Source: Aureliella helgolandensis (GTDB lineage Bacteria > Planctomycetota > Planctomycetia > Pirellulales > Pirellulaceae). From it: DNA of 64,000 nucleotides. Below the pieces are notes generated by a model. That model did not search any database and was not told the DNA's origin. It saw only the letters and a program-made list of their open reading frames with translations. Positions within the stretch are counted from its first letter, which is position 1, and each line of letters opens with the position of its first letter. Location of the stretch: assembly GCF_007752135.1 (NCBI RefSeq), contig NZ_CP036298.1, positions 3,596,001 to 3,660,000 on the forward strand, in the 5' to 3' direction. This document shows positions 2,228 to 42,684 of the stretch, in pieces. The translations under genes and the position numbers were made by a program.

Positions 2228-4060
2228 CTAGCGTACCGGCTTCCAACCATCGGTGTTGTACAACGAATTGCTCGCTGGAGCGGCCGATGGTGTACGGTAC
2301 GATTCACTGGATGGTCGCGCAGTTGGCGTCTGAGGCCGAATCTCGGGTGTTGGACTACCCATTGCATGCGATTGCTCGGAAGAGATCGCCGCTGGTTCAC
2401 TGCTCAACTCCAACTCGCCCCAAGGAGTGCGAGGTTCTGGCGTGGTCGAGGGACGAACGCGGGAATTCCGTAAGCCAGACTGGGGCGTCGACCCGTACGA
2501 GGATTCCCTCTGCAGGCTCGACTCGGATTCAACAGTGGGAAGTTGAGGACGCAGTTGGAGTCTGTTCGTTGGCAATTCGGGCGTCTGGCGACTAGCTGTT
2601 TCAGATTCGAAACTGGCCCAATGGATCGCGGTGGATTGACCCGCATATTGCGCTGCCAGAGGCACGTATTGCGGCGGGGCGTTGTGGGAGGCAGTCATAT
2701 CTCCCTCACGCAATAGACCAGGATTCCAGTTGGGGGATGCATCAAATCCACGTGGCGCTGGCAGTGGCGTCATGGCTGGAGCAGAGCTGCGTGGCTGGTC
2801 CGTGGACGGCTGGGCGACGGTAGTGTCTTCCTCTTGGCGAGGCTGACGCGTAATGCTTCGGAGCGAGGGACGGTATGAATCATTGCTCGCCGCGCTTGTC
2901 GACGTGGGGAAGTTCGGAAGGCTCGGCGGCGAATCCGCGGGGTCGTTGCTAGGTCCTGGGTAAACGCCACTCGGTGAACTGCTCGACGGAGGCGCTGTGC
3001 TGCCTGGGTACGATCCACTTGGTGCAGGGGCACTCGTGGAAGGTGGTGGCGAAGTAGGCGCGGCTTGAAGGCTCGGGGGAGCCGAGAGCCCAGGTACCGT
3101 GTAGGGATAGCCAGGACTGGAGGAACCACTGTATCCCCCGCAACTGCCACCGTTGTTGGTGCTGTAATTTGGGGTCGTGTTGTAGTACGGTGTGGCGCCA
3201 TATTGATTGGTTGGGTAGGAACCCGGAGTACCGTATGCCGGGGGCGGTGCCGTCAAATCGGTTGTGGGCGTTTGCAAGGCTGAATAGCTGCCATACCCGC
3301 TGGTGTAACCATAGCTGGTGGCTGCGGGGGCCATCATGCTGGGAGCAGCGTAGCCCAACGGGATTCCACCACTGGGAAGTGTGTACGATTGCATGCCTGG
3401 CGCTGTCTGCGGCGCGGCCGGCGGTGCGTAGGATCCGAACAGTGAGCTGCGTCCAAGTGTCGGGACTCGTTGTGCCTGATACTCGTAGGAGGTGCAGGGA
3501 GCCATCGCGACAACCTGCGCTCCCGTGCGTGGATCGGTCGAGAGCATCGGTCGGTAGTAGGTCACTGGGGCACGCAGAGACTGCGTGCCATAATTGGGTA
3601 CGTAGGAAACCGTGGGAGGCATGGTTGCGGCCGCAATGCCGGAAAGCGGCGGGGTTGAATAACCAGCGCCCGTTGAACCAATGACTGGCAATTGCGAGCC
3701 GTAGTAGTTTCCGTAGTTCGTGGCATAGCCATTCGGAATCATCGGTACCGGACTGGCTGTCGGAGTGCCGTAGCCGGACACCGCTGCATTGTAGGGCGCA
3801 TAACCGGCGACATTCCCGCTACCGACTGGTACCGGTTGCCCAACGGGATAGGCTGGCGCAGTGCGCCTAGCGCCAAACAGCCAATCGATCAAAGGGCCGG
3901 CTTGTGCTTGTTGGGGCGCGAGTCCCCCCAGGCAGCAACCAGCAGTGAGCAACATCACACCGGCCAACTTCAACGGCTTGCGATGCGCTGCGGCGCAGCG
4001 ATTCGACGAGCTGGGACAGTTGATTGAGCCTAAGTCGCGTTCGACTTGGTTAATCGGCAT
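2228..4060 (-). CDS. secreted Pro/Ser/Tyr/Gly-rich low-complexity protein
   Basis: About 610 residues from the ATG at 4060 (MPINQVERDL); an upstream in-frame start at 4087 is possible. A long signal-like segment at about residues 28-55 (LKLAGVMLLTAGCCLGGLA, then QQAQA) indicates export. GPLIDWLFGARR follows, a pattern I associate with planctomycete secreted proteins. Residues 60-350 are dominated by Tyr-Gly, Ala-Pro and Ser repeats (YGYTSGYGSYS, YPGSTAPPSSSS). The C-terminal 250 residues are Pro/Ser/Thr/Arg-rich and look disordered. No enzymatic motif is visible. It may be a cell-envelope or matrix component; this is inference from composition only. Confidence 0.75.
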   Translation of the reverse strand: MPINQVERDLGSINCPSSSNRCAAAHRKPLKLAGVMLLTAGCCLGGLAPQQAQAGPLIDWLFGARRTAPAYPVGQPVPVGSGNVAGYAPYNAAVSGYGTPTASPVPMIPNGYATNYGNYYGSQLPVIGSTGAGYSTPPLSGIAAATMPPTVSYVPNYGTQSLRAPVTYYRPMLSTDPRTGAQVVAMAPCTSYEYQAQRVPTLGRSSLFGSYAPPAAPQTAPGMQSYTLPSGGIPLGYAAPSMMAPAATSYGYTSGYGSYSALQTPTTDLTAPPPAYGTPGSYPTNQYGATPYYNTTPNYSTNNGGSCGGYSGSSSPGYPYTVPGLSAPPSLQAAPTSPPPSTSAPAPSGSYPGSTAPPSSSSPSGVYPGPSNDPADSPPSLPNFPTSTSAASNDSYRPSLRSITRQPRQEEDTTVAQPSTDQPRSSAPAMTPLPAPRGFDASPNWNPGLLREGDMTASHNAPPQYVPLAAQYAGQSTAIHWASFESETASRQTPELPTNRLQLRPQLPTVESESSLQRESSYGSTPQSGLRNSRVRPSTTPEPRTPWGELELSSEPAAISSEQSHAMGSPTPEIRPQTPTARPSSESYRTPSAAPASNSLYNTDGWKPVR

Positions 4061-27318: not shown

Positions 27319-28677
27319 TCAATGGAGGCCGTAGCGGCTCATTTTGTAGTGCAGTGTGCGGACGCTGACTCCCAATGCTTTGGCTGTCAGTTCCCGATGA
27401 GAGTCGCAGGCGGCGAGCGCGATTTGCACTGCTTTTTTCTCAGCATGCTCGGTGGCTTCCGCCAGTGTTTGCACTCTATTGGAAACCGTCGTAGCGCCAG
27501 ACTTCAGATCGTTGGGCAAATGGTTCGCGTCGATCTGATCATCAACACAAGTAACTACCAATCGCTCGATTACATTTCGCAATTGCCGAACATTGCCTGG
27601 CCAACTGGCTTCGGTCAACCGAGAAATGGCTTCATCCGTCAATCGTTTTTCATTCCTTTTGTGACGGCTGCAGAAATGTTTCATAAAGTGGTCTACGAGC
27701 AGCGGGATGTCGTCGCGACGTTGTCGTAGCGGTGGAATGTGGAGCGGAATGATATTTAGGCGATAGTAGAGATCTTCGCGAAAGCAGCCGTCTTCAATCA
27801 GCGCGCGCGGGTCTTTGTTGGTCGCAGAAACGAGCCTCGCATCGGATTCCAAAAGCTCCTCACCGCCAACGCGATTGAACTGCCCGGTTTCGAGGACTCG
27901 CAACAAATCCACTTGGCTTTTGGTCGGTATCTCGGTGATCTCATCCAAAAATAGCGTGCCGCCGCGGGCTTGTTCGAAGCATCCCGGCTTTTGTCGGGCT
28001 GCTCCTGTGAACGATCCCTTTTCATGCCCAAATAGTTCACTTTCCAACAGCATTTCTGGGAGCGCGCCGAGATTGACTGCGACAAAGCGATGGCGGCAGC
28101 GGCTGCTGAGATCGTGCAAGGCGCGGGCCACCAACTCCTTGCCAGTGCCGCTTTCCCCCTGGATCAAGACCGTTGCGTCGGTGTCGGCCACCTGCCGCAG
28201 TTGAGCGAACAATTCATGCATGATCGTACAGTTTCCAATGATATCGGAGATCGTACCTGCATCGGCCAACTGGCTCTTCAGCGATGTGTTCTCGCTTTGA
28301 AGTTGTTGATGGTTGAGCGCTTTGGCGACCTGCTCGCGAATCAGGTTGAGATCCACCGGTTTGGAAATGAAATCAAACGCGCCTCGCCGCATTGCATCAA
28401 CGGCCGTTTCGACGGTTCCATGGGCTGTCAGGACGAGGACCGTCGTCTCGGGGCTTCTTTGAGCGATCAGCGAGACAAGGTCCAAGCCATCTCGATCACC
28501 TGGAAGACGCACGTCAGCGATTACTACGTGGTACGGTGACTTGTCGAATTTATCGAGAGCTTCGTTGACGTCGCTCGCCGTGTCGACCTCCTCAGCCGAC
28601 TTGACGAGTCCTTTGGCCAAACCGCTACGAATATGTGGTTCGTCGTCAACAATCAAAATTCGCGTTGCTGGATTCAT
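27319..28677 (-). CDS. NtrC-family sigma-54-dependent response regulator
   Basis: 452 residues. An N-terminal receiver has the phospho-acceptor Asp55 (VVIADVRLPG). The central AAA+ domain carries GESGTGKE (Walker A) and EKGSFTGA, a Ser variant of the GAFTGA sigma-54 contact loop. A C-terminal Fis-type helix-turn-helix (VQIALAACDSHRELTAKALG, VRTLHYKM) binds DNA. Activators of this type hydrolyse ATP to open sigma-54 promoters. It is coupled to the histidine kinase gene by a 4-bp overlap. A sigma-54-like promoter and two dyads lie upstream of the divergent dabA operon, its most obvious target. Confidence 0.95.
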   Translation of the reverse strand: MNPATRILIVDDEPHIRSGLAKGLVKSAEEVDTASDVNEALDKFDKSPYHVVIADVRLPGDRDGLDLVSLIAQRSPETTVLVLTAHGTVETAVDAMRRGAFDFISKPVDLNLIREQVAKALNHQQLQSENTSLKSQLADAGTISDIIGNCTIMHELFAQLRQVADTDATVLIQGESGTGKELVARALHDLSSRCRHRFVAVNLGALPEMLLESELFGHEKGSFTGAARQKPGCFEQARGGTLFLDEITEIPTKSQVDLLRVLETGQFNRVGGEELLESDARLVSATNKDPRALIEDGCFREDLYYRLNIIPLHIPPLRQRRDDIPLLVDHFMKHFCSRHKRNEKRLTDEAISRLTEASWPGNVRQLRNVIERLVVTCVDDQIDANHLPNDLKSGATTVSNRVQTLAEATEHAEKKAVQIALAACDSHRELTAKALGVSVRTLHYKMSRYGLH

Positions 28678-30092
28678 TCACTCGATTTCGATGTAGGGGA
28701 CGCGATGCCGTCGCTCACGCGGGGCGATGTCTGGTGGTCGATAGGAAGCGTCATGCGAAACGTGGTTCCGTCTCTAGAAGTCACAAAGTCGAGACTACCG
28801 CCGTGCTGGCGAACGATTTTGTCCGACAATGCCAACCCCATCCCGGTGCCATCGCTTTTGGTCGTGAAATAGGGATCGAAAACATGGGACCGTGAGGACT
28901 CGGGAATTCCGTGCCCGGTATCACTGACCGATACGCACACGGCATCGCTTCCCGAGAGTTGGGCTGATTCTTGGGAAATGGTTAGCGTTCCGCCACCTTG
29001 CATTGCTTGAATCCCGTTGAGCATCAGGTTCAACAGGACTTGTTCAATGCGCACTCGATCGATGCAGACAGGACGGTCGGTGGCGGCAAATCCATCAATC
29101 TTGACCTTCACGTTAAGCTGCGAAGCACGCGGACGGAGCAGCTTCACTTGCTGATCAACGATCTCATGCAACATCGTTTCGTCGAGCTGTAGACGGCCGA
29201 TTGATGCAAAGTCACGGAACCCCTCTAAGACACTACCCACTCGCGACACTTCGGTCTTGATCACATGCATTAGTTTTCGGATCTCATCGGGCTCATTCGG
29301 CTCGTCGAGCTGTTCTTCTAGCAGTTGGACGTGTAGCGACAAGCCTGCTAAAGGATTCTTGATTTCGTGGTGAAGACCCGCGGCGACGGAACCAAGGCCC
29401 ATGAATCGCTCCATGCGCCGCATTTGACTCTCAATATGGATTTGTTCCGTCACGTCACGCAGCTGAATGACATTTCCTATCATTGCGTTCATGCGATCGC
29501 GAAGCGGCTGGCAGAAGGTCCGCAAGCGACGTTGCCCTTCGGGGACTGTGATGAAAAAATCCTCAATCAGTGAGCCGTGTTCGGTGTTGTTGGCCTTAGC
29601 GCGAAATGCGGGCAGGTCAATCTCGTCGGTGACCGATGCAAGCGGCGTGCCGACAGGGTCGGACTCCAGTCTCAGCAGATCTGCGACTCTCGAGTTGCAA
29701 CTAGTCACATCACCAAGGCGATTGGTAGTAATCACCGCTTGATCCATGCTACTAAGGATGTCGCCAGCAAGTGCCTTAATATCTCGCAGAGAGTCTTGCG
29801 AGGTTTGGTACGCACGCCATAGCAATAAAACGGCACAACCGGTGGCGACGAGATTCACGACCACCAAAATGGACATTCGGAATTGCCATTTGAGTTCCCC
29901 CACAAGCGTTTCGGCCTCGATTCTCGCGTCGGCTGGCAAATCGCGAATCAATTGTCGAACCGTCGCTTGCTCATCCACAAAATCGATCATGACCCAGATC
30001 GTGATGACAAGTGCCGTAACGCTCAGGACGAGCAAGGCCGTGATGGCTGTACGGTAGGTCTTGACCGTTTCGCCCGATGGAACGCGGAACAT
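28674..30092 (-). CDS. membrane sensor histidine kinase
   Basis: 472 residues. Two membrane spans (about residues 14-36 and 75-97) flank a short, charged external segment (FVDEQATVRQLIRDLPADAR). A PAS-like domain (SSMDQAVITTNRLGDVTSCN) follows, then the H-box GLHHEIKNPLAG and the N/G boxes VLLNLMLNGIQAMQGG, SVSDTGHGIPESS and GTGMGLALSDKIV. It should autophosphorylate on His and pass phosphate to Asp55 of the downstream NtrC-type regulator, with which it overlaps by 4 bp. The small external loop suggests sensing in or near the membrane or through the PAS domain. The stimulus is unknown; inorganic carbon is my guess from the neighbour operon. Confidence 0.93.
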   Translation of the reverse strand: MFRVPSGETVKTYRTAITALLVLSVTALVITIWVMIDFVDEQATVRQLIRDLPADARIEAETLVGELKWQFRMSILVVVNLVATGCAVLLLWRAYQTSQDSLRDIKALAGDILSSMDQAVITTNRLGDVTSCNSRVADLLRLESDPVGTPLASVTDEIDLPAFRAKANNTEHGSLIEDFFITVPEGQRRLRTFCQPLRDRMNAMIGNVIQLRDVTEQIHIESQMRRMERFMGLGSVAAGLHHEIKNPLAGLSLHVQLLEEQLDEPNEPDEIRKLMHVIKTEVSRVGSVLEGFRDFASIGRLQLDETMLHEIVDQQVKLLRPRASQLNVKVKIDGFAATDRPVCIDRVRIEQVLLNLMLNGIQAMQGGGTLTISQESAQLSGSDAVCVSVSDTGHGIPESSRSHVFDPYFTTKSDGTGMGLALSDKIVRQHGGSLDFVTSRDGTTFRMTLPIDHQTSPRVSDGIASPTSKSSE

Positions 30093-30192
30093 AGCTCAGT
30101 AATGCCTTGGGGAATTCAAAGTAGCCAGCCGTGATTTTCGCACGCCACCCGATTTTTGTAAGCCGGGGGGACGATGCACCAGGGCTCGGTTG

Positions 30193-30227
30193 TGCAAAAG
30201 TTTGCAGCTATCGTGCAGAAGGTTGCA
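30193..30227. promoter_or_regulatory. paired palindromes, candidate enhancer sites for the NtrC-type activator
   Basis: The first site is the perfect dyad TGCAAA-AG-TTTGCA (30193-30206). The second, TGCAGA-AG-GTTGCA (30214-30227), is a near copy exactly 21 bp away, which is two helical turns. They lie about 100-130 bp before the sigma-54-like promoter. This is the usual arrangement of upstream activator sites for a dimeric bacterial enhancer-binding protein, and such a protein is encoded next to them. Confidence 0.65.
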
Positions 30228-30325
30228 GTCGGCAGTGCCATGGTAGCAATCTCAAGCAGGGTGCCGACTGCAAAAATGCCCTCCAACGCGGTCAAACAGC
30301 TAGAAATTGTGCTCGAATTTCCTGT

Positions 30326-30341
30326 TGGCACGGGGCATGCA
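30326..30341 (+). promoter_or_regulatory. sigma-54-type promoter of dabA operon
   Basis: TGGCACGGGGCATGCA has the conserved GG and GC elements at the correct 10-nt separation and matches the sigma-54 consensus TGGCACG-N4-TTGCA with one mismatch. Transcription would begin near 30352, giving a leader of about 112 nt before dabA. A sigma-54 activator gene lies next to it. Confidence 0.7.
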
Positions 30342-30463
30342 TACCAGGCCGGTGAGGTAGTCGAACTCTCCTCGATAATGATCTCACTTTGACTAGCAGC
30401 GTGGATGCCGATGGGTTTCCAGGCTAAAACCGACTCGAAACAGTAAAGAATTGCCCCAGCGTC

Positions 30464-33400
30464 ATGCATGACGATACCACCAGCTCAGACTCGAGCACTA
30501 CTTCTACCGCAGGTGATTATCAGCCCGACAATTTGTTGCACGTGATTGAACACGCTTCCCATTTCCTGCCAGCGCAGGGACCGATCGAGGTTTTCGTGCA
30601 TCATAATACGCTGCACGCCTTCGAGCACTTGCCATTCGATCAGGCGGTGCGAGCCGCTTGGAAGATTTACGGGGCCCAGCCCTATATGAGCAAGCAGCGG
30701 TTCCGCGAACTCTTTAGAGAAGGCCGGATTGCAGAATCGGATCTGCGTACCGTTCTGCACGAGGATTTGGGCGACGAAGAATGCGTTCCCGTTGCAGGCT
30801 TGGGGAGCCGTTATGATCTGCGATTGGCTATGCTTTTGCATCCAATGCGGACCGCTCCTGAGGATGAGTTGCGATGGGCCATTGCGGAAACGGATGCGTT
30901 GACCCGCTTTCGTGATGACGTCAATCTGGTGCAAATCGAGCAGATGGTGATGGCGACCAAGGAGTCACTTGCAACCGAAACGCTCAGTGAACCGTTGCAA
31001 TCGCGTATTGCATCGTTTGGCAGAGGGGCGCGCACGAAGTGGGGGCAAGACGACTGGGAGGCGTTTACGCTTCTCTCGCTGTGGGATACCTGTGACACGG
31101 GCGTCGAATTGGCTGACCGAACGCTGACCACCCTCGAGCGTCCCAAACGCCTTCGCGACGTCTTGTTGATTGCGACAGGGGAAGATCCCGACCGGTTCGT
31201 CCATGAGATGCTGATTCGCTTCACGGCAACGTTCATCGACCAAGGGTTCGCCAGCTGGAATCTACCGCACCGCGACCAAGGATATTTCAAGGCGTTCGTG
31301 GCGCTTTACATCCGAGAGATGATTGCAGGCGAGCGTTGGGCACAGGGACTTTCCTCCGAATTGCAAAAGATTCAGGGCGCCCGTACGACGGCGATCGCAT
31401 CGATCCGGCAATCGTTGCGATTGATGGGAGTGGAACCGCAGGACTACGAAACCGTGATCACGCAAACGTTGCTCGCTCTGCCGGGATGGGCGGGGATGGT
31501 TGCACAGTTGGCGGATGCACCCCATTGGGTCGACCGGCCGTTGCCCAAGGACACTTTGGTTGAATTCTTGGCGGTGCGTCTGCTGTTGGATCGTTTGGCA
31601 GCCAAGCACGTCGCAGTTGAGCAACTGGGATTCTCTGGCTCGCTCGATCAATTGTCAGATTACGCTTGGGACCGTGCGAATACTTCGCAGAAAGTGCATT
31701 TGCAGAACTGCTTTCTCGTCTTTCAAGTTGCCCAGATCATGGGATGGGACTGGTCCACACTACGGGAGTTGGATCGTAAGCAATGGGCATTGATCTTCCA
31801 CGAACTGGAGTCGTTTGATGAAGTTCACCGTCGCCGGATTTTTCAGCAAGCCTACGAACGTAAGTATCGCGACGAATCGCTGACGGCAGTGGCGTTGACG
31901 TCCGCACGTGCCAAGTCCAGGCCGCACACACGCCGGCGACCTTCCTTTCAAATTGCGTGCTGTCTCGACGATCGTGAAGAGTCGTTTCGACGCTATTTGG
32001 AGGAGACGGATCCGAACTGCGAGACCTTCGGTGCGGCCGGCTTCTTCGCCGTCGCGATGAATTATCAGGGGGCGACCGACGCGAATTACAAACCGCTCTG
32101 TCCCGCGATTGTGACACCCAATCATTTTGTGCGGGAAAACGTGGGCTATACGTTTGCGGGGGAGCACCGCCGGCGAGCAGCCACGCGACGGAAATTGGGA
32201 ATGGCCACTCATCGCTGGCACTCGCGCAGTCGCGGCTTCATCGGCGGGGCGCTTACGTCAATTCTAGGAAGCCTGGCTGCGTTCCCGTTGGTTTCACGCG
32301 TGTTGTTTCCAAGGTTGACTGCTCAGATTCGTCGCAAGGCGGGGGAGTTGATCAAGCCGCCTCCCGTAACGCAATTGCAACTCGAGCGTTACAAACCAGA
32401 CCCAGGGCCAGAGGATGGCAATGTGGGGTACACGGTCGAAGAGATGATTGTGATTGTCGAGCGATTGCTGCGGGACATTGGGCTAACCCAAACGTTTTCA
32501 CGAATAGTTGTGATCACCGGCCATGGCTCATCAAGTGTCAATAATCCACATGAATCGGCCTACAACTGTGGTGCCTGTGCAGGGAAACGCGGGGGACCGA
32601 ACGCCCGGGCGTTCGCTCAAATGGCGAATGACTGGAGAGTTCGCCGAGGTGTGGCACAAAACGGAATTGTGATTCCAGATGATACCACCTTTCTGGGCGC
32701 CTATCACAATACCTGCGACGACAGCGTCGTCTGGTACGATCTCGATCGGATGCCACCGTCGCACTTTGATCTGTTTGAAACCGTCAAACGCACCTGCGAC
32801 GAAGCTCGACTTCGAAACGCTCATGAGCGAGCGAGGCGATTTGAATCCTGCGAAATTGATTGCACACCAGAGGAAGCGTTGCGTCACGTCGAACGGCGCA
32901 GCGAAGACCTGTCGCAAGTCCGACCCGAGTACAATCACGCCACGGATGCACTGTGTTTTGTGGGACAACGCGAATGGTCGCGTGGATTGTTCTTGGATCG
33001 TCGGGCGTTTTTGACCTCCTATGAACCGGAGCAGGACGATGCAGAGCACTCGATCCTGCTTCGCATTCTATCCGCGGCCATTCCGGTTTGTGCTGGGATC
33101 AATCTCGAATACTACTTCTCAGCTGTGGACAACATCAAGTATGGCTCGGGAACGAAACTGCCCCATAACATCGTTTCGCTGCTGGGGGTGATGGAAGGTG
33201 CAACCAGCGATCTGCGAACAGGTCTTTATCGTCAAATGATCGAAATCCACGAACCGATGCGTATCCTGTTTGTGATTCAGACAACTCCGGAGGCCATGCT
33301 CAGCGTGATGGATCGCCATGAGGGTATCGGACTCCTTTGCCGAGGTGACTGGATTCAATTGGCCGTCTTGGACCACGCCACCTCAAAGATTCAACTTTGG

Positions 33401-33589
33401 CACGATGGCAAATTTGTTCCGTTTGAACCGGAGGCGGATCAGCTTCCGATCGCCCAAGATTCAGTCGCTTGGTTTCGTGGACATCGTGAGAATCTGCCTT
33501 TCGCTTGGTGCGAGGCAGCCACGGTGTCAGACGAGAATGCAGAGTCCGAGAGCTTGGTTGCGAGCGGAATGGAAGCAGGCAGAGCATGA
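30464..33589 (+). CDS. dabA: inorganic carbon transporter subunit DabA (DUF2309)
   Basis: 1041 residues. DabA is the soluble, carbonic-anhydrase-like subunit of the energy-coupled DAB system that traps CO2 as bicarbonate in the cytoplasm. The zinc-site residues can be placed: C500 and D502 in CCLDDREE, H687 in [12 protein letters not shown] and C702 in NCGAC. The 15-residue gap from His to Cys equals that of the characterised enzyme. The N-terminus ([20 protein letters not shown]) and the C-terminal NVVSLLG-like [13 protein letters not shown] also match. The first of four genes that are closely packed. It begins at ATG 30464 without a strong ribosome binding site. Confidence 0.95.
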
Positions 33590-35025
33590 GTATTCAGCAG
33601 CTTTTAGAATTCAGCGGTGCGATTACCCTGATCAGTCCGGCGGCCCTACTATTGATCCTGGGATTGGTGCCTCTACTTGGCATTCGATTGAACGAGGGCA
33701 TCACATCTTTTGTGACGCAGGTTTCGGTGATCATCGGACTCTTCGGTGCCATTGCTGTGCTGGCGATCATGTTGTGGACCGATAGTCGCCATGTGCCGAT
33801 TGAGTTGGGAGACTGGGTTGCAATCGAGCAGCAACACTTTCATTTCCACTTGAAGTTTGTCTTTGATCGTTTGTCAGTTCCGTTTGCCATCATGACCTTG
33901 GTCTTGTGCGGCACCGTGGGCGCGTTCACACGCGTTTACTTACATCGTGACCCGGGTTACCAGCGTTTCTTTTTGTTTTACGCGGTGTTCTTCCTCGGAA
34001 TGGTGGTGTCATCACTGGCCGGCACCATCGAAACGCTGTTCTTGGGCTGGGAATTGGTCGGTTTATCGTCTGCGTTGTTGATCGCTTTCTTCCAAGATCG
34101 CCAATCTCCCGTGCGAAACGGTTTGCGAGTGTGGTGTGTCTACCGGATTGCGGATGCCGCGTTCATGGTCGCCGCACTATTGATGCATCATCTAACCGGT
34201 GCTGGTGACTTTGATGGCCTGATGGGATCGGGACCATGGCCTGAAGGCGTCGCTAATATCGCAGCAGGGCCGGCGCTTGGCGTGGGCCTGTTGTTGCTGG
34301 TTGCGGCAGCTGGGAAATCGGGGATGGTGCCGTTTTCGGGATGGCTCCCGCGTGCGATGGAGGGCCCCACTCCCTCAAGTGCTGTTTTCTATGGCGCCCT
34401 ATCAATTCATTTGGGGACCTACCTACTCTTGAGAGTCAGCCCACTGCTGGATGTCTCCCGAGTTTTGCAAATTGCCGTAATAGCGATTGGCGCTGTAACA
34501 GCCGTCTATGGAGCGTTGACATCTCGGGTGCAAACCGACGTCAAGACGATGCTTGGTTTTGCATCGTTGACACAAGTTGGCATTATCACCGTGGAGATCG
34601 GATTGGGCTTCCGTTATTTGGCATTGATTCACATCATTGGCCATGCCTTGTTGCGAACTTTGCAGTTGCTGCGCGCCCCATCGCTGCTCAAGGACTATTT
34701 CAATTTGGAAGATGCGATTGGCGGCGGCTTGCCCGGCGCCCCCAACTCCACCAGGCAAATCGCGTCCGATGACCGTTGGCAGTGGCTCTACCGGGCATGC
34801 AACGAACGTGGTTATCTGGATTCCATAATCTACCGGTTGATAGCACTTCCAATCATCAAGGCCTTTCAATGGTTCGGTCGTTTAGAGGATGGTTGGACAA
34901 CGTTTCTTTCCGGCGGCAAACCAGCGGGCCGCAAGGCGACCGGATCGCGGTCGTCGCAGAATGATGGGGCGCCCAGCGATACTCGCGCCGACAAAGCCAG
35001 CCAGCTGGTGGAGGACTTAAGATAA
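33586..35025 (+). CDS. dabB: DabB, NuoL-like membrane subunit of DAB
   Basis: 479 residues from the ATG at 33586, which overlaps the dabA stop as ATGA. The protein is a polytopic NuoL/MrpA-type cation-conducting subunit ([58 protein letters not shown], and a [17 protein letters not shown] helix). In DAB, the proton or sodium gradient through DabB powers DabA. Key charged residues of the antiporter family are visible (the E in GWELVGL, and K in AAGKSG). The long hydrophilic C-terminal tail (about 470 on) ends [13 protein letters not shown]. Confidence 0.92.
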
Positions 35026-36542
35026 TGCCTGAACTACTACTACCTTGGCTCGAACTGTCGATCTTAATTCCGTTGCTGGGCGCCTTGCTCGTCAAACTCC
35101 CCAAGAATCGCGAATTTGCACGACGGTTGTGCATCGCTGTTTGCGGCCTGACATTGCTCTGCACCCTTGCCGAGTGGGCCGATTTCTCGCGGATGGACGC
35201 CTTTGAGGCACACGATCACTGGGACCCGTTGGCAAGTATCTTTCATTCGAACATGCTTGTCATCGATGAGCTGAACGCTCCCTTGTTGCCGTTGGTTTCG
35301 CTGCTTTTCCTGTTAACCGTTCTGTCGACTTTACGAACGAAACTGAACCGATTTTCGCTGAGTGGCACGTTGTTGTACGAGGCGACGTTGATGGCTACTT
35401 TCAGCTGCCAAGCGAACTGGCTATTGATTGGCTTGCTGATTCTCGGAGCGGTCTTTCCCTGGTGGGAAATGCGATTTCGGCGTGGTGAGTCAACGCGTGT
35501 CTACTCAATCCACATGCTGCTATTCGCATTCAGCATGGTGGTTGGCTACGGACTATTGCCGGCCGACGCTGAAAATCATCCGAATCAGCCCGGTACGGTC
35601 ACAATGATCGCCGCGGCCCTGTTGACGTTGGGAGCGCTCTTGCGGAACGGCATCGCTCCACTGCATTGCTGGATGACGGACTTGTTCGAGCGTGCCACCC
35701 TAGGAACGGCTCTGCTGCACGTTTTACCAATGACCGGTGCGTATGCCGCAATGCGATTGGTGTTACCGATCGTGCCGACGTGGGCCCTTCAAAGCATCGC
35801 CGTCCTGTCACTCTTTACTGCTGTCTACGCCTCCGGGCGTGCCTTGGTGGAAACCGACACTCGAAAGTTCTTCTGCTATTTGCTGCTCAGCAGTTCATCG
35901 CTGGTGTTAGTCGGTTTGGAATTGGTTACTCCGGTTGGTTTGACGGGGGCTCTATGCCTGTGGTTATCCATCGGTCTATCGCTGGGAGGGCTCGGCCTGA
36001 CGCTGCGTAGCGTCGAAGCTCGCGTGGGACGCATCGGATTGGAACGCTTTCATGGACTGGCCGAACACATGCCTACCCTGGCTGGATTGTTCTTGTTGAC
36101 CGGCCTTGGCTCGATCGGTTTCCCTGGGACGATCGGATTCATTGGAGCGGAATTGTTGGTCGAGGGGGCGGTGGAAGTTTACCCAATTGTCGGCATTGCG
36201 GCGGTAGTCGCCGCAGCGATGAATGGCATTGCAATCATGCACGCCTATTTTCGAATCTTTGCCGGGCACGTGTTCACAGCGACGATCTCATTCAAGGCAA
36301 AACCGTCCGAGAGATTTGCTGTGGTCGTGTTAGCTCTACTGATTGTTGGTGGTGGTTTGTATCCCCAACCCGGTGTGCAGTCGCGTTATCATGCGGCTGA
36401 GACGTTGCTGAAGCATCGCGGGCCATCTTCGACAGTGCATGCCGGACACGGTGACCCCCAAAAACTACAGAGTGGCTCAGCTACCCCGCTGCATGAGCAA
36501 GCCATGCCACAGGAACAACCCACGTCCAGGAGCGAACAATGA
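35025..36542 (+). CDS. second NuoL/M-like membrane subunit of the dab operon
   Basis: 505 residues, polytopic, with a start that shares one base with the dabB stop (TAATG). It keeps the antiporter-like helices ([20 protein letters not shown], where the usual PFHxWLPDA signature appears as [40 protein letters not shown]). It is shorter in key acidic positions than DabB. Many dab operons have only dabA and dabB, so this third gene is notable. It may be an additional ion-conducting subunit. The hydrophilic tail ([14 protein letters not shown] onward) resembles that of dabB. Confidence 0.85.
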
Positions 36543-36676: not shown

Positions 36677-38677
36677 GTGGCCACCGCTCCAATCGAACCC
36701 CAAGAAACTCCGCGCGGCGATGTTAGCGGTTTTACTCGCTATCTGAAACATGATTTGATCTCTGGCTTGCTGGTCTTTTTGATCGCTCTGCCGCTTTGCT
36801 TGGGTATCTCCCTTGCGTGCGGCTATCCACCGATCGCGGGGATCTTCACAGCGATTATCGGCTCGATTCTTTGTACCTTCCTGAGTAATAGCGAGCTGAC
36901 TATCAAAGGCCCCGCGGCAGGTTTGATCGTAATTGCGATCGGCTGCATCGAGGACTTCGGTGGGAATGGCATGACGGGCGGATGGGGGGAGGCGGATATC
37001 ACCGCGTATAAAGCGGCACTGGCGATTGGAGTCGCAGCGGCAGTGCTGCAGATCCTGTTCGGCATCTTTCGCGCCGGAATTCTGGGAGAATTCTTCCCGA
37101 CCGCCGCAGTCCATGGAATGCTGGCCGCTATCGGGATCATCATCATGATCAAGCAGTTTCCAGTCGCGTTGGGAGTGATCGGAGCAGGCGGTGAACCACT
37201 GGAGATGCTGAAAGAGATTCCGCACTACTTGGCAGAAGCGAATCCAGCCATCGCCGCGATCGGTATCGTAAGCTTGGCGATCATGTTCGCATGGCCGTCT
37301 ATCCGTGAGCGTGTTGCGTTCCTAAAGGTGATTCCGGCGCCCTTGGTTGTCCTATTGGTTGCGGTTCCCATGGGGATGGGATTTGACCTGCTGCATGCGC
37401 ATCCCTATTCGCTGTCTAACCATGAATACCAATTGGGTGAACAGTACTTAGTGAAAATGCCCGACCGTGTTTTCGGTATGTTCGACGACATTACCTTTCC
37501 AGCATTCGCCGCGCTGCAACAGCTGAAAGCGTGGAAATGGGTGATGATGTTCTTCATCATCGGGACGCTCGAATCCCTGTTAAGTGCTAAGGCGATTGAT
37601 CTGCTGGATCCTTGGAAGCGCAAAACCAACATGAACCGCGACATGATTGCGGTTGGAGTTGCCAACTTAGCAGCCGCCGGCGTGGGCGGTCTGCCGATGA
37701 TTTCTGAGATCGTCCGTTCCAAAGCGAATATTGATAATGGTGCGAGAACTCGGTTTGCAGACATGTGGCACGGGATCTTCCTATTGCTGTGCGTTGCGTT
37801 GATGCCAACCATCCTGCACCGGATTCCCCTAGCTGCCTTGGCTGCGATGCTGGTCTACACCGGCTTTCGCCTAGCTCACCCCAGCGAATTTTTGCATGTT
37901 TGGCGAATTGGCAAAGAACAACTGGCCATTTTTGTGACCACAGCCGTGGTCGTTCTGGCCACCGATCTGCTGATTGGTGTTGCCGCCGGGATCATTTTGA
38001 AAATGCTGATCCATGTTTCCAACGGTATGCCTCTGAAGAGCATGTTTAAACCGTTTTTGGAGGTTCAAGACGTCGACGACAACACCAGCATCATCATTGC
38101 AAAAGAGTCGGCGGTGTTTAGTAACTGGATTCCATTCCGCCGCCAAATCGAACAGGTGGGATTGGTCCAACAACGCAACCTCATCGTGGACTTGTCTGGC
38201 GCGAATCTAGTCGATCACAGTGTGATGGAGAAACTGGAGGAGATGGGACGCGACTTCGATCAGGAGGGGCTTAAGTTCGAAGTTCGTGGCTTGGATTCAC
38301 TTACCCCTTGGGCCGGTGACGCGCATGCGGCCCGCAAAAAGGGGCTCGCGAGGGTGCGTCGAATCACAGTCGTGGCTGAGGAAACGTTGGAAGATAGCTT
38401 GATTCTGAAGTTTATTGAATTCGGTATTACGGGCTACACCTTGATGCATTGTTCGGGAGCCGGAAGACAGCAACTCAAGCTTGGCACGCAGCGTTCGCCG
38501 CAGGTTCGGATCGAAGTGATTGCTTCATTGAGCGTGTGCAACAGAATCGTTGATTACTTGCGATGCGAAATTCTGGAAAAGTATCGAGTGACTCTTTGCA
38601 TCGAAAATGTCGAAGTCGTCCGTGCGGCAGATTTTATTCCAGTCCTCGCAGAAGCGGAAGCTCATAAGCTCACCTGA
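36677..38677 (+). CDS. SulP-family bicarbonate-type transporter with C-terminal STAS-like and PII-like domains
   Basis: 666 residues from GTG 36677, with TAGGAAG upstream. Residues about 20-440 are the SulP core ([49 protein letters not shown]). Residues about 465-555 are STAS-like ([37 protein letters not shown]). Residues about 561-660 ([75 protein letters not shown]) read like a PII/SbtB-type signalling domain. The neighbours are dabA-dabB, so bicarbonate is the likely substrate. The PII assignment is by pattern and needs a profile search. Member of the same operon, 134 bp after the preceding gene. Confidence 0.88.
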
Positions 38678-39013: not shown

Positions 39014-40525
39014 TTAGAAGTCAAGTTGCGCTCGGACAGCAAACAGGTCAGCGTTCGATCGATGGTTAATCGGACTGTTTAACATGGCATGAATGTAGTT
39101 GAACTGGAACTTAGTGTTCGGGTTGATATACCAATTGAGGCCGGATGTGAGATTATTCAAGCGACCACCTTGGATGTTCTTGTCGTTCAAATCAATGTAC
39201 GACCAGCGTCCTGCAAGTTCCAAGGCCCCAATTCCTCCATCCTTCCCGACACTTCGATTCGGTTGAACTCGACCAAAGACGCCACCTTTTCCGTTGTAGG
39301 GACGCGACTCACCGGTCAAGAAGTAGCCTGCATTGGCGTAAGCGCCTGGCAGAGTTAGGGCGGAGTCGTCCTGTCGGCTGACAACTGCAACGATCGCTTC
39401 GGATTGTGCATAGAACGATCCGTAGGACATTGCCAACTCCACATTGGCCAGGTTGACGTGGTCTGTGGCGATTAAGCCGGTGTCAACGAAGGGTGGCAGG
39501 TTGGTTGGAACGCCTGTGGGCAGGGCAGCACCGCCACCTGTTTCGCCAACAAAGAGTTCGGGCTGGTTGCGGTATTGGATCAAGTCGTTCGCGGGGTCGA
39601 TGTAGCTATAGCCACCACCGATATGCAGCAAGCCATTCCCCTCATCCTCCTTGAACAGCAGGCCGGTTATGCGTGAGGCAAGCCCGTAGCCGCCATTATC
39701 CCCCACGTTGCCTCCATAGGTATCGGTTGGAAAGCGAAAACCCGAAATGGCCCAGGTCGCAAGTTCGTCTTCGCGATAGCCGTGAAGCATGGTTCCGATT
39801 TGTCGGAAAGGCAAGAAGGCGAATGGCAAACCACGTTCAAGAAAAGTCATTTCTTTGACGCTTGTCAAACCGTCCATCCCAAAGGGTTGACGGTACTGGC
39901 CAATGCGTAACTTATTACTACCGAGCACATCGTCGATGTCCATCCAGACATCCATGAAACTTGGCCGCCCAGGAAACGCAAAGTCCATTTCAAGCATGTA
40001 AGCGATATTGTCCCATGCTTGCCCGGTGGCTGCGATTCGAGCGCGACGAAAATCAGCACCATCCTGCACGTCACCATCGGCCGCAACGCCCTTGCCCACT
40101 GCCACTCGATTATCCAGGCTCTGGCTGGCCCACAGCGCGTCCGCTTGAAAAAATCCAGTCAGTCGGGCCGTGGGGAATTTCGGTTTTTCCATCGCTGGTG
40201 GAGTGCACCACAGCATTCCTGACGTAGCCGATTGGTCGTTTGCCAATTTCGTAGGGGAGGATGTCGGGGGGCCAATCCTCAACGCTTGCAATTCGTCGAT
40301 CTGCTGTTGGAGACGCGTCGCCTCTTGCTGCCATTGACTGGGCGGCGAGGAGCTCTCAGAGAACTCAGCCTGGGAATTCACTTCCCACGACTGCGGTGAT
40401 TGTGCCAGAACTGGAGACGAAACCGCCCAGGCAGCGGTAGAGAATGAGCTACTAAGAACAGCGAACAGTCGCAGGAAATGGAGAAATTTGCCACTCTGGC
40501 AGAGACTGGTGTGTCGTAGATTCAT
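39014..40525 (-). CDS. outer-membrane porin, OprP/phosphate-selective type
   Basis: 503 residues with a signal peptide ([20 protein letters not shown], then AQSPQSW) and a coiled-coil segment ([20 protein letters not shown]), as in planctomycete Porin_O_P proteins. The barrel follows ([45 protein letters not shown], and the terminal strands [18 protein letters not shown] ending VRAQLDF with a final Phe). Anions are the usual cargo of this family. Convergent to the dab-sulP operon, so an anion role in carbon uptake is possible but unproven. Confidence 0.88.
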
Positions 40526-41140: not shown

Positions 41141-42584
41141 GTTGTTAAAACTGTTGGTGGTCTCGCTGGCTAAAGGGTACTGGAAAAGGTCTTTAGGATC
41201 AAACAGGTGGTGGAACTAAAGTGATGGGGCCCGTGCCGTCGCCGGAGCCGTAGGCGACGGCACGGGCCCCGACGGCGGCTTTGTTGGTGTAGCCGCGTGT
41301 TCTCTCGCTAGGGCGGCAATCAGCTTAGGTAGTTCCTTGTGGCCGCTGATTCGATGGAACCCCTTTTCGGCCTCAAGCAGTGCGTAGGACAGCCAGCGAC
41401 TCGCCTGATCCGTGTCGGCTCGGAATCGTGTTACACGCCCCAAGCGGCGACGCGTGTTCAGGAAGGAGTTCTCAATCGCGTTGGTACTTAGCAGTGAACG
41501 ATGGAGCGTGTTTGGCACTTCGAGTCGGTGAAGGGCTAGCAGGTCCTCACCGGCCTCATGAAGGCTCTTAAACGCTTCGGCATTGAGAGGCTCAAGGAAT
41601 GCCTCTAGCTCGCCGACGACCTCTTGTGCGGCGGTATAACCCTGCACGCTACGGAGTCGTCTAAACAGCCGAGCGAGTTCACCCGTATGACGCTTCGATA
41701 GCTTGCCACGAATGTTGCGTTCCTTGTGAACTAAGCAGCGTTGGATGACCGAGTCGGGGAAGTGCTCCTTGACCGCTTTGCGAAGCACATCGCTGCCATC
41801 CAGGACTGCCAGTAAGCGCTGCGAGCAAGTAAAGCCGCGACGGGCCAAGCGAGCAAGCAATTCATTGGATACAACTGCATTTTCACTACTGCCCAGCGCA
41901 AAGTCGAGCACATGCTTGCAGCCTTCAGAATCAATACCGAGAGCAACCACTGCCGTCTGGTCTGAGCTTAGCCGGATACCATCGAGCATCAGAATGCACC
42001 ACGTATGCCCCGACAGATCACGGCTGCGTAGCTCGTCGATCAATCGTGTTCCCGCCTCTTGCCATAGACGCGAGACGCTCGAGCGGCTTACGCCTGGCGA
42101 CTTCGGCTTCACCACAGACATCTGACGAGTGCTTACCCCAGACATCAACGCTTGAATTACAGCCTTCTCCAGCTGCTCAGGATCGTTGGCGGCAGCGTAG
42201 CTGATCAGCTCCACTTCGCGGCTTCCCCCCGCCTCCTGACGCTCGCGAACTCGCGGACGCGTCACCGACTCCCGTTCACCTTCGACCAAGATGCGTCCCG
42301 CGGCGCTACCAGCTCGATAGGTCCGACAATCGCTCGGGGCGTGCTTTGGGCCGCACAGTTCAGCCACTTCGGCAGCCATTACCTCACAGGCCATCTTCAC
42401 GATCGAGCCCCGTAAGAATTCGCGAAACACTTCGCCAACTTCAGCGTTCGAAACTTGCCCAAGCTCGCGCAACAAACTAGATTCAGTCATGGTGGTCTCC
42501 CCGTCGGCGGTAACCGACGTAAATTGGAAAATGCAGAAGGCAATATATTGCCTTCTGGGAGACCACCTTTCAACTTTTAACAAC
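41141..42584 (-). mobile_element. IS256-family insertion sequence
   Basis: A 1444-bp element with one transposase gene. The ends are imperfect inverted repeats of about 27 bp: left GTTGTTAAAACTGTTGGTGG, then TCTC, and right (reverse complement) GTTGTTAAAAGTTGAAAGGT, then GGTCTC. No 8-9 bp target duplication could be found: the left flank is GTCCCTTGC and the right flank GATTCGGAC. It lies between the porin and CorA genes and interrupts no recognised gene. Confidence 0.8.
41216..42490 (-). CDS. IS256-family (Mutator-like) transposase
   Basis: 424 residues from the ATG at 42490; the frame is open upstream to 42667, beyond the IS end. It contains the DDE-type signatures of the family: HTWCILMLDGIRLS (first Asp), LLAVLDGSDVLRKAVKEHFP, the conserved RCLVHKERNIRGKLSKRH, and the C-terminal LLSTNAIENSFLNTRRRLGR (catalytic Glu in NAIE). 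The protein is intact and the IS looks capable of transposition. Confidence 0.95.
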   Translation of the reverse strand: MTESSLLRELGQVSNAEVGEVFREFLRGSIVKMACEVMAAEVAELCGPKHAPSDCRTYRAGSAAGRILVEGERESVTRPRVRERQEAGGSREVELISYAAANDPEQLEKAVIQALMSGVSTRQMSVVKPKSPGVSRSSVSRLWQEAGTRLIDELRSRDLSGHTWCILMLDGIRLSSDQTAVVALGIDSEGCKHVLDFALGSSENAVVSNELLARLARRGFTCSQRLLAVLDGSDVLRKAVKEHFPDSVIQRCLVHKERNIRGKLSKRHTGELARLFRRLRSVQGYTAAQEVVGELEAFLEPLNAEAFKSLHEAGEDLLALHRLEVPNTLHRSLLSTNAIENSFLNTRRRLGRVTRFRADTDQASRWLSYALLEAEKGFHRISGHKELPKLIAALAREHAATPTKPPSGPVPSPTAPATARAPSL

Positions 42585-42684
42585 GATTCGGACGCTTCCA
42601 GACTTGGGACGCGAGTTCGACGCGAGAACTCGAGATGCTCTTGAACCGGCAGGTTGCCAAGCGTCACGAACTTGGTCGTTGAGA

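Follow-up and report, generated by a model that had tools for sequence, protein, structure and literature searches.

The locus studied here lies in an 8.44-Mb genome assembled as a single contig, from which a stretch of 64 kb (hereafter, the window) was examined. It contains a run of four genes on the forward strand, the first of which, dabA (30464..33589), encodes an inorganic-carbon transporter subunit whose match to PF10070 (E=3.6e-238) covers the full length of the profile. It is followed by two genes for DabB-like membrane subunits, one of the proton antiporter family (33586..35025; PF00361 and PF00662) and a second one at 35025..36542 (PF00361), and then by a gene for a SulP transporter with a C-terminal P-II-like domain (36677..38677; PF00916 and PF00543). 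The first three genes are joined by start/stop overlaps, ATGA between dabA and the first dabB-like gene and TAATG between the two dabB-like genes. The SulP gene is likely the last one of a dabA-dabB-dabB-SulP operon, because the search for a separate sigma-54 promoter in front of it yielded no site scoring above 6.7 between 36301 and 36680, and the same gene order is repeated in many relatives. The P-II-like domain spans residues 561-650 of the SulP protein and may gate transport in response to a nucleotide or bicarbonate signal. Beyond the operon, a Porin O/P-family outer-membrane protein (39014..40525, reverse strand; PF07396) is encoded as a convergent neighbour. An open frame near the downstream end of the operon (41216-42667, reverse strand) reads, in translation, like what is presumably a mutator-type transposase.

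The assignment of this system to the DAB/DAC/MpsAB complexes is based on the alignment with the solved DabA2 (9rd0), in which C500, D502, H687 and C702 stand opposite C351, D353, H524 and C539, as well as on the adjacent gene for a DabB-like proton-conducting subunit (PF00361/PF00662). We take these four residues to be a beta-carbonic-anhydrase-like zinc site. Unlike the described complexes, the system has two DabB-like genes and a SulP protein with a P-II domain, and its DabA is made of 1041 residues instead of the 870 of DabA2. It also stands in a genome with no match for RuBisCO, nor for SbtA. Since no RuBisCO match was found, heterotrophic carboxylation, by anaplerotic and biosynthetic enzymes, is the most likely use of the bicarbonate taken up. 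The predicted substrates of both transporters follow from their families and, for SulP, also from the operon context.

Divergently from dabA, the reverse strand encodes a membrane histidine kinase (28674..30092; PF00512 and PF02518, HisKA and HATPase), the proposed sensor, and an NtrC-family response regulator (27319..28677; PF00072, PF00158, PF25601 and PF02954), the proposed activator of dabA. In the regulator, Pfam identifies a REC domain, a Sigma54_activat AAA+ domain and a Fis-type HTH within one protein, and its closest solved relatives are NtrC-family regulators, including the ZraR structure 1ojl. The original prediction placed a kinase and an NtrC-type activator with a GAFTGA-like loop at this position, and the domains are indeed found, with a sigma-54-contact loop that reads GSFTGA in the translation, a conservative variant of GAFTGA. 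The kinase has hydrophobic stretches near residues 12-41 and 70-95, with a short loop separating both helices, and a PAS-like domain that scores below the Pfam cut-off only; no known ligand domain was found in it by Pfam. Within the PAS-like region, Cys194 (29511-29513, reverse strand) is kept in at least 90% of 22 aligned kinase orthologues, and it is a possible sensing residue. The genome has one match for rpoN and 23 matches for sigma-54 activator domains, 18 of them strong.

The intergenic region between the divergent pair and dabA (30093-30463) contains the features on which the proposal of sigma-54 control was founded, each of them lying where the original prediction had put it. Sigma-54 promoters follow the consensus TGGCACG-N4-TTGCW, and the predicted -24/-12 promoter of dabA, TGGCACGGGGCATGCA (TGGCACG-GGGC-ATGCA, 30326..30341, forward strand), departs from this consensus by a single mismatch, an A for a T, with its GG at 30327-30328 and its GC at 30339-30340 separated by N10. 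When scored with a weight matrix that we made from the consensus, this site ranked first among the nine that reached at least 12 on both strands of the window. Transcription of dabA would thus be expected to start near 30352. The GG-N10-GC arrangement, in a TGGCAC...TTGC-like context, is conserved as the same class of site in many relatives, and it is weak in some of them. Upstream of it lie two putative enhancer dyads of the form TGCA-N6-TGCA, TGCAAAAGTTTGCA (30193..30206) and TGCAGAAGGTTGCA (30214..30227), the second one placed 21 bp after the first; an additional lone TGCA is found at 30175. The end of the second dyad is 98 bp away from the -24 element, and, measured from their centres, the two dyads lie some 107 and 128 bp before the GG, near enough to the 110-130 bp originally proposed. 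The layout corresponds to a textbook enhancer, in which a pair of sites separated by two turns of the helix precedes a -24/-12 promoter by about 100 bp, with the genes for the activator and its kinase adjacent.

Both dyads are rare in the genome. The pattern drawn from them, TGCANAAGNTTGCA, has just two exact places in the 8.44 Mb, which are these dyads, and 53 places on both strands when up to one mismatch is allowed. The exact array TGCA-N6-TGCA-N6..8-TGCA-N6-TGCA occurs in a single place, at dabA, and its reversed control pattern occurs in none, so the description of the switch as a dedicated one fits the single exact array.

The conservation of these elements was examined in a sample of 199 genomes of the family. 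A DabA match was present in 121 of them and a close regulator orthologue (E<=1e-120) in 70, the regulator-bearing relatives including Rhodopirellula, Stieleria, Roseimaritima and Neorhodopirellula, while the four-TGCA array was found in 64/199 genomes (reversed control, 4/199) and spread over 26 of the 68 genera. From 96 of the 121 dabA genomes, 98 upstream regions were obtained, some of them under 1500 bp and one as short as 178 bp, requiring a DabA match at the N-terminus (start within 40 residues, 30% identity); G056 (too short) was left out, together with others that fell outside the sample or had no such N-terminal match. The notion that the regulator accompanies dabA in every genome did not hold, as 37 of these regions came from genomes without a regulator match, some of which may be wrongly labelled because some genomes are incomplete. 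The array (at least 15/16) was found at dabA in 47 of the 61 regulator-positive regions versus none of the 37 regulator-negative ones, counts that are not independent trials and whose Fisher values overstate independence, because the genomes share ancestry and some are incomplete. The same contrast was obtained for exact dyad pairs (46/61 versus 0/37), for sigma-54 scores of at least 12 in the last 420 bp (37/61 versus 3/37; 3.7% in random windows of the same loci) and for an array followed downstream by a sigma-54 site of at least 12 (29/61 versus 0/37). As a control, five other four-base palindromes were looked for in the 98 regions, and no pair of any of them was found. Most of the 47 arrays at dabA have a dyad spacing of 21 bp (29 arrays) or 20 bp (17), with a single one at 22 bp, and the dyad consensus across relatives is TGCA-R-N4-Y-TGCA. 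Therefore, poor conservation of the two types of site in close relatives, named from the beginning as a possible refutation, was not what was observed: dyads about two helical turns apart, some 100-150 bp upstream, are conserved together with the regulator, and so is the promoter.

Fourteen of the 61 regulator-positive regions have no array at the tested spacing. Six of them (G130, G141, G166, G174, G186 and G192) carry two exact dyads at a spacing of 19 or 23 bp together with a sigma-54 site scoring 13.8, and G132 has a single dyad and a site scoring 15.1. Another five (G025, G098, G105, G108 and G133) belong to one clade of regulators (SH-aLRT support 97), with RND efflux genes beside three of its five regulator loci. 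In G019, the array stands before the SbtA gene and not before dabA, and G014 contributes a pair of dabA regions, of which one carries an array and the other lacks it. A second kind of exception concerns the promoter: among the 47 regions with an array, 17 reach no sigma-54 score of 12 in the last 420 bp, although several score from 9 to 12. The top site of G086, G138 and G179 is not downstream of the array but overlaps it or lies before it. The case of G138 weighs most because this is the nearest relative by DabA (71% identity), and beyond the array it has no site scoring higher than 9.0.

These figures bear on the most sceptical reading, namely that the sigma-54-like site and the dyads arose by chance or are parts of the kinase promoter, and that dabA is transcribed from an ordinary sigma-70 promoter. 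It is true that sequence matches alone never prove function, that TGGCACGNNNNNTGCA, a sigma-54-like pattern, has six exact matches in the whole genome, and that the nearest relative has a weak site only. However, the pairing and spacing of the dyads are conserved and split by the presence of the regulator, sigma-54 sites beside arrays point elsewhere at SulP or Sbt genes, and no minus-strand site above 8.5 directed towards the kinase was found in the intergenic region. The genome-wide counts, together with the split between regulator-positive and regulator-negative regions, led us to reject a chance origin of the sites, and the sceptical reading as a whole must be regarded as very improbable. 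Its recurrence in many relatives makes the arrangement look like a genuine control circuit instead of a coincidence. The sigma-54 two-component switch anticipated for dabA is thus supported, the dyads having been found only where the regulator was found. We consider it probable, at roughly four chances in five, that the kinase and its NtrC-type partner directly activate the dabA-dabB-dabB-SulP inorganic-carbon import operon through sigma-54.

Arrays were also found away from dabA. Of the 75 array places among the matches listed, 34 are within 1.5 kb upstream of dabA and another 16 have just a regulator orthologue within 6 kb; the other 25 are at neither, 11 of them being, as judged by eye, tandem or low-complexity stretches. 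In Rhodopirellula baltica BR-MGV (G164; L049 and L158), the first 127 bp of the contig bearing dabA, which include the array, are found again with identical sequence next to the regulator on a different contig, so perhaps the assembly is broken at this point and regulator and dabA are true neighbours.

The genes beside the regulator were then inspected in 82 of the 83 listed matches (G111:C6, with 48% identity, was left out) by scanning about 9 kb around it, or less at contig ends, which cut several loci. A DAB, SulP or Sbt gene was present in 47 of the 82 loci, RND efflux genes in 12 and neither in 23, so that carbon genes appear as targets in many genomes and the RND-linked branches as exceptions. 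Ten loci (L034, L035, L038, L079, L080, L082, L084, L094, L204 and L212) have an array and a sigma-54 site before the SulP gene, and in L078 both precede a gene for an SbtA-type bicarbonate transporter (PF05982, E=8.5e-91). In L204 (G155), a broken DabA remnant in three short pieces (3319-3710) lies between the array and an intact-looking SulP gene. In four related genomes (L034-L037), the surroundings of the regulator also include an additional DabA-like gene of low similarity (28-34% identity), accompanied by a DabB-like gene of its own.

The association extends beyond the family. In a draw of 294 genomes from the phylum, the regulator was matched at E<=1e-140 in just eight, and six of these eight belong to a different family within the class. 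Three of these six loci (G349, G334 and G391) are complete, with kinase, regulator, array, sigma-54 site and dabA-dabB-dabB-SulP, and their promoters score 12.7, 11.3 and 15.6, respectively; two others have arrays, but the stretch contains neither DAB nor SulP genes, and in G222 both arrays and such genes are missing. G391 is the Thalassoglobus neptunius found among the relatives with the regulator, the stretches being identical, so these count as one case.

The 12 RND-linked loci (L060, L061, L063-L067, L070, L071, L090, L093 and L102) fall into two branches of the regulator tree, which was built with 81 sequences, leaving out the truncated regulator of L046, and in which three changes suffice to account for the RND linkage. 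Eight of these loci also contain a cytidylate-kinase-like gene, and in some the TGCA arrays are placed before the RND adaptor or the cytidylate-kinase-like gene. The regulator of the window belongs to a starred group of ten rows, seven of which are linked to carbon importers. The original suggestion that the kinase senses CO2 or bicarbonate fared in two ways: the DAB, SulP and SbtA targets found across genomes favour it indirectly, and the two branches at RND genes count against it. The regulator family has been re-used in these branches, and for this reason the signal stays uncertain.

Indeed, the circuit could work as described with a kinase that senses external pH, membrane potential, or envelope or cation stress, carbon uptake being just one of its outputs. 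The related regulators beside RND genes, some with the same type of array, would fit such a signal, as would the short inter-helix loop and weak PAS-like region of the kinase and the coupling of DAB2 activity to the proton gradient described in PMC13144422. In contrast, the commonest partners tested are inorganic-carbon transporters, an SbtA gene included (47/82 versus 12/82 for RND). We regard a non-carbon signal as possible, if rather doubtful. As different carbon importers share the signature in different genomes, the stimulus may instead be the carbon supply itself or some condition connected with it, and it is plausible, judging from the targets, that the kinase senses carbon status. It can tentatively be proposed, at a little short of even odds, that this is a two-component system for sensing inorganic-carbon shortage, whose sigma-54 regulon would consist of whichever carbon importer a given planctomycete has (DabAB, SulP-PII, SbtA and possibly an outer-membrane porin), in the present case with no RuBisCO match in the genome.

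The inclusion of the porin in the circuit of the operon is tentative. Of the other 81 regulator loci searched, 14 contain a Porin_O_P homologue with 41-65% identity (L107, L106, L091, L104, L105, L046, L047, L068, L069, L072, L073, L074, L078 and L109), and in nine of these an array (at least 14/16) is found within 900 bp upstream of the homologue. Despite these arrays, the sigma-54 sites before the porin homologues score mostly as weak, and no array was found upstream of the porin of the window. A possible role for the protein would be that of an outer-membrane route for bicarbonate.

In several loci, no good promoter accompanies the array, which is placed either in the interval from kinase to porin or immediately ahead of the gene for the regulator. 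Such arrays would suit a regulator that binds the dyads mainly to repress or to control its own expression, sigma-54 activation being secondary. Against this stands the distance from array to promoter, which is 97-155 bp in 38 of the 41 dabA regions having an array and a site of at least 8 beyond it, about the usual activating distance for such enhancers, as well as the fact that the regulator retains its sigma-54 activation domain with the GSFTGA loop. Repression or autoregulation as the main role is thus considered unlikely. Helical phasing between array and promoter was also looked for, and no clear 10.5-bp period was seen by eye in these gaps.

Direct activation can be put together as follows, from the directly observed sites, their rarity in the genome and their joint presence or absence with the regulator across genomes. 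Low inorganic carbon, or an internal state following it (pH or carboxylation demand), would lead the kinase to phosphorylate its divergently encoded partner, whose dimers would then bind both TGCA-N6-TGCA dyads on one face of the DNA. The bound regulator would oligomerise, loop over the approximately 100 bp to the promoter and remodel the closed complex of the sigma-54 polymerase, so that dabA-dabB-dabB-SulP would be transcribed from 30326-30341. Phosphorylation, binding and activation are attributed here by analogy with the family to which the regulator belongs.

A similar organization is known for NtrB/NtrC and ZraS/ZraR, in which a histidine kinase acts with a REC-AAA+-Fis regulator and paired dyads lie upstream of a -24/-12 promoter. 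The present system differs from them in its target, carbon import, and in its dyad, TGCA-N6-TGCA, the NtrC consensus being of the TGCAC-N7-GTGCA type. It also differs from the LysR-type CbbR, CmpR and CcmR/NdhR, which control inorganic-carbon uptake genes, as a phosphorelay and a sigma-54 activator would be used here. The regulators usually named for CO2 or bicarbonate shortage are the LysR types of autotrophs.

Studholme and Dixon reportedly carried out in 2004 an in-silico survey of the sigma-54 activators of Pirellula sp. strain 1, from the same bacterial group, and a counterpart of this regulator may already be listed there. That work is cited in a 2025 survey of sigma-54 regulons including Planctomycetia (PMC12316311), whose main text gave no match for bicarbonate, inorganic carbon, SulP, COG3002 or carbonic anhydrase. 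The accessible text of a 2024 review of inorganic-carbon toolkits (PMC10880623) gave none for sigma, CbbR or histidine kinase, and that of a report on stress transcription in R. baltica (PMC2754498) matched sigma-54 once and bicarbonate not at all. None of the available portions of these three sources mentions DAB genes as being controlled by sigma-54, nor do those of PMC13144422 and PMC2621215 or the literature matches listed, as far as the titles and the beginnings of the abstracts of the latter go. The mechanism would therefore be that of an ordinary sigma-54 two-component switch, acting on a class of genes for which no such control was found described among the literature listed.

Little is known about how heterotrophic bacteria notice a shortage of CO2 or bicarbonate. 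A conserved pair of kinase and activator, with a DNA signature that stands before different importers, provides a concrete candidate for such a sensor, as well as a motif by which its regulon could be traced, and it suggests that planctomycetes keep their carbon import under a switch.
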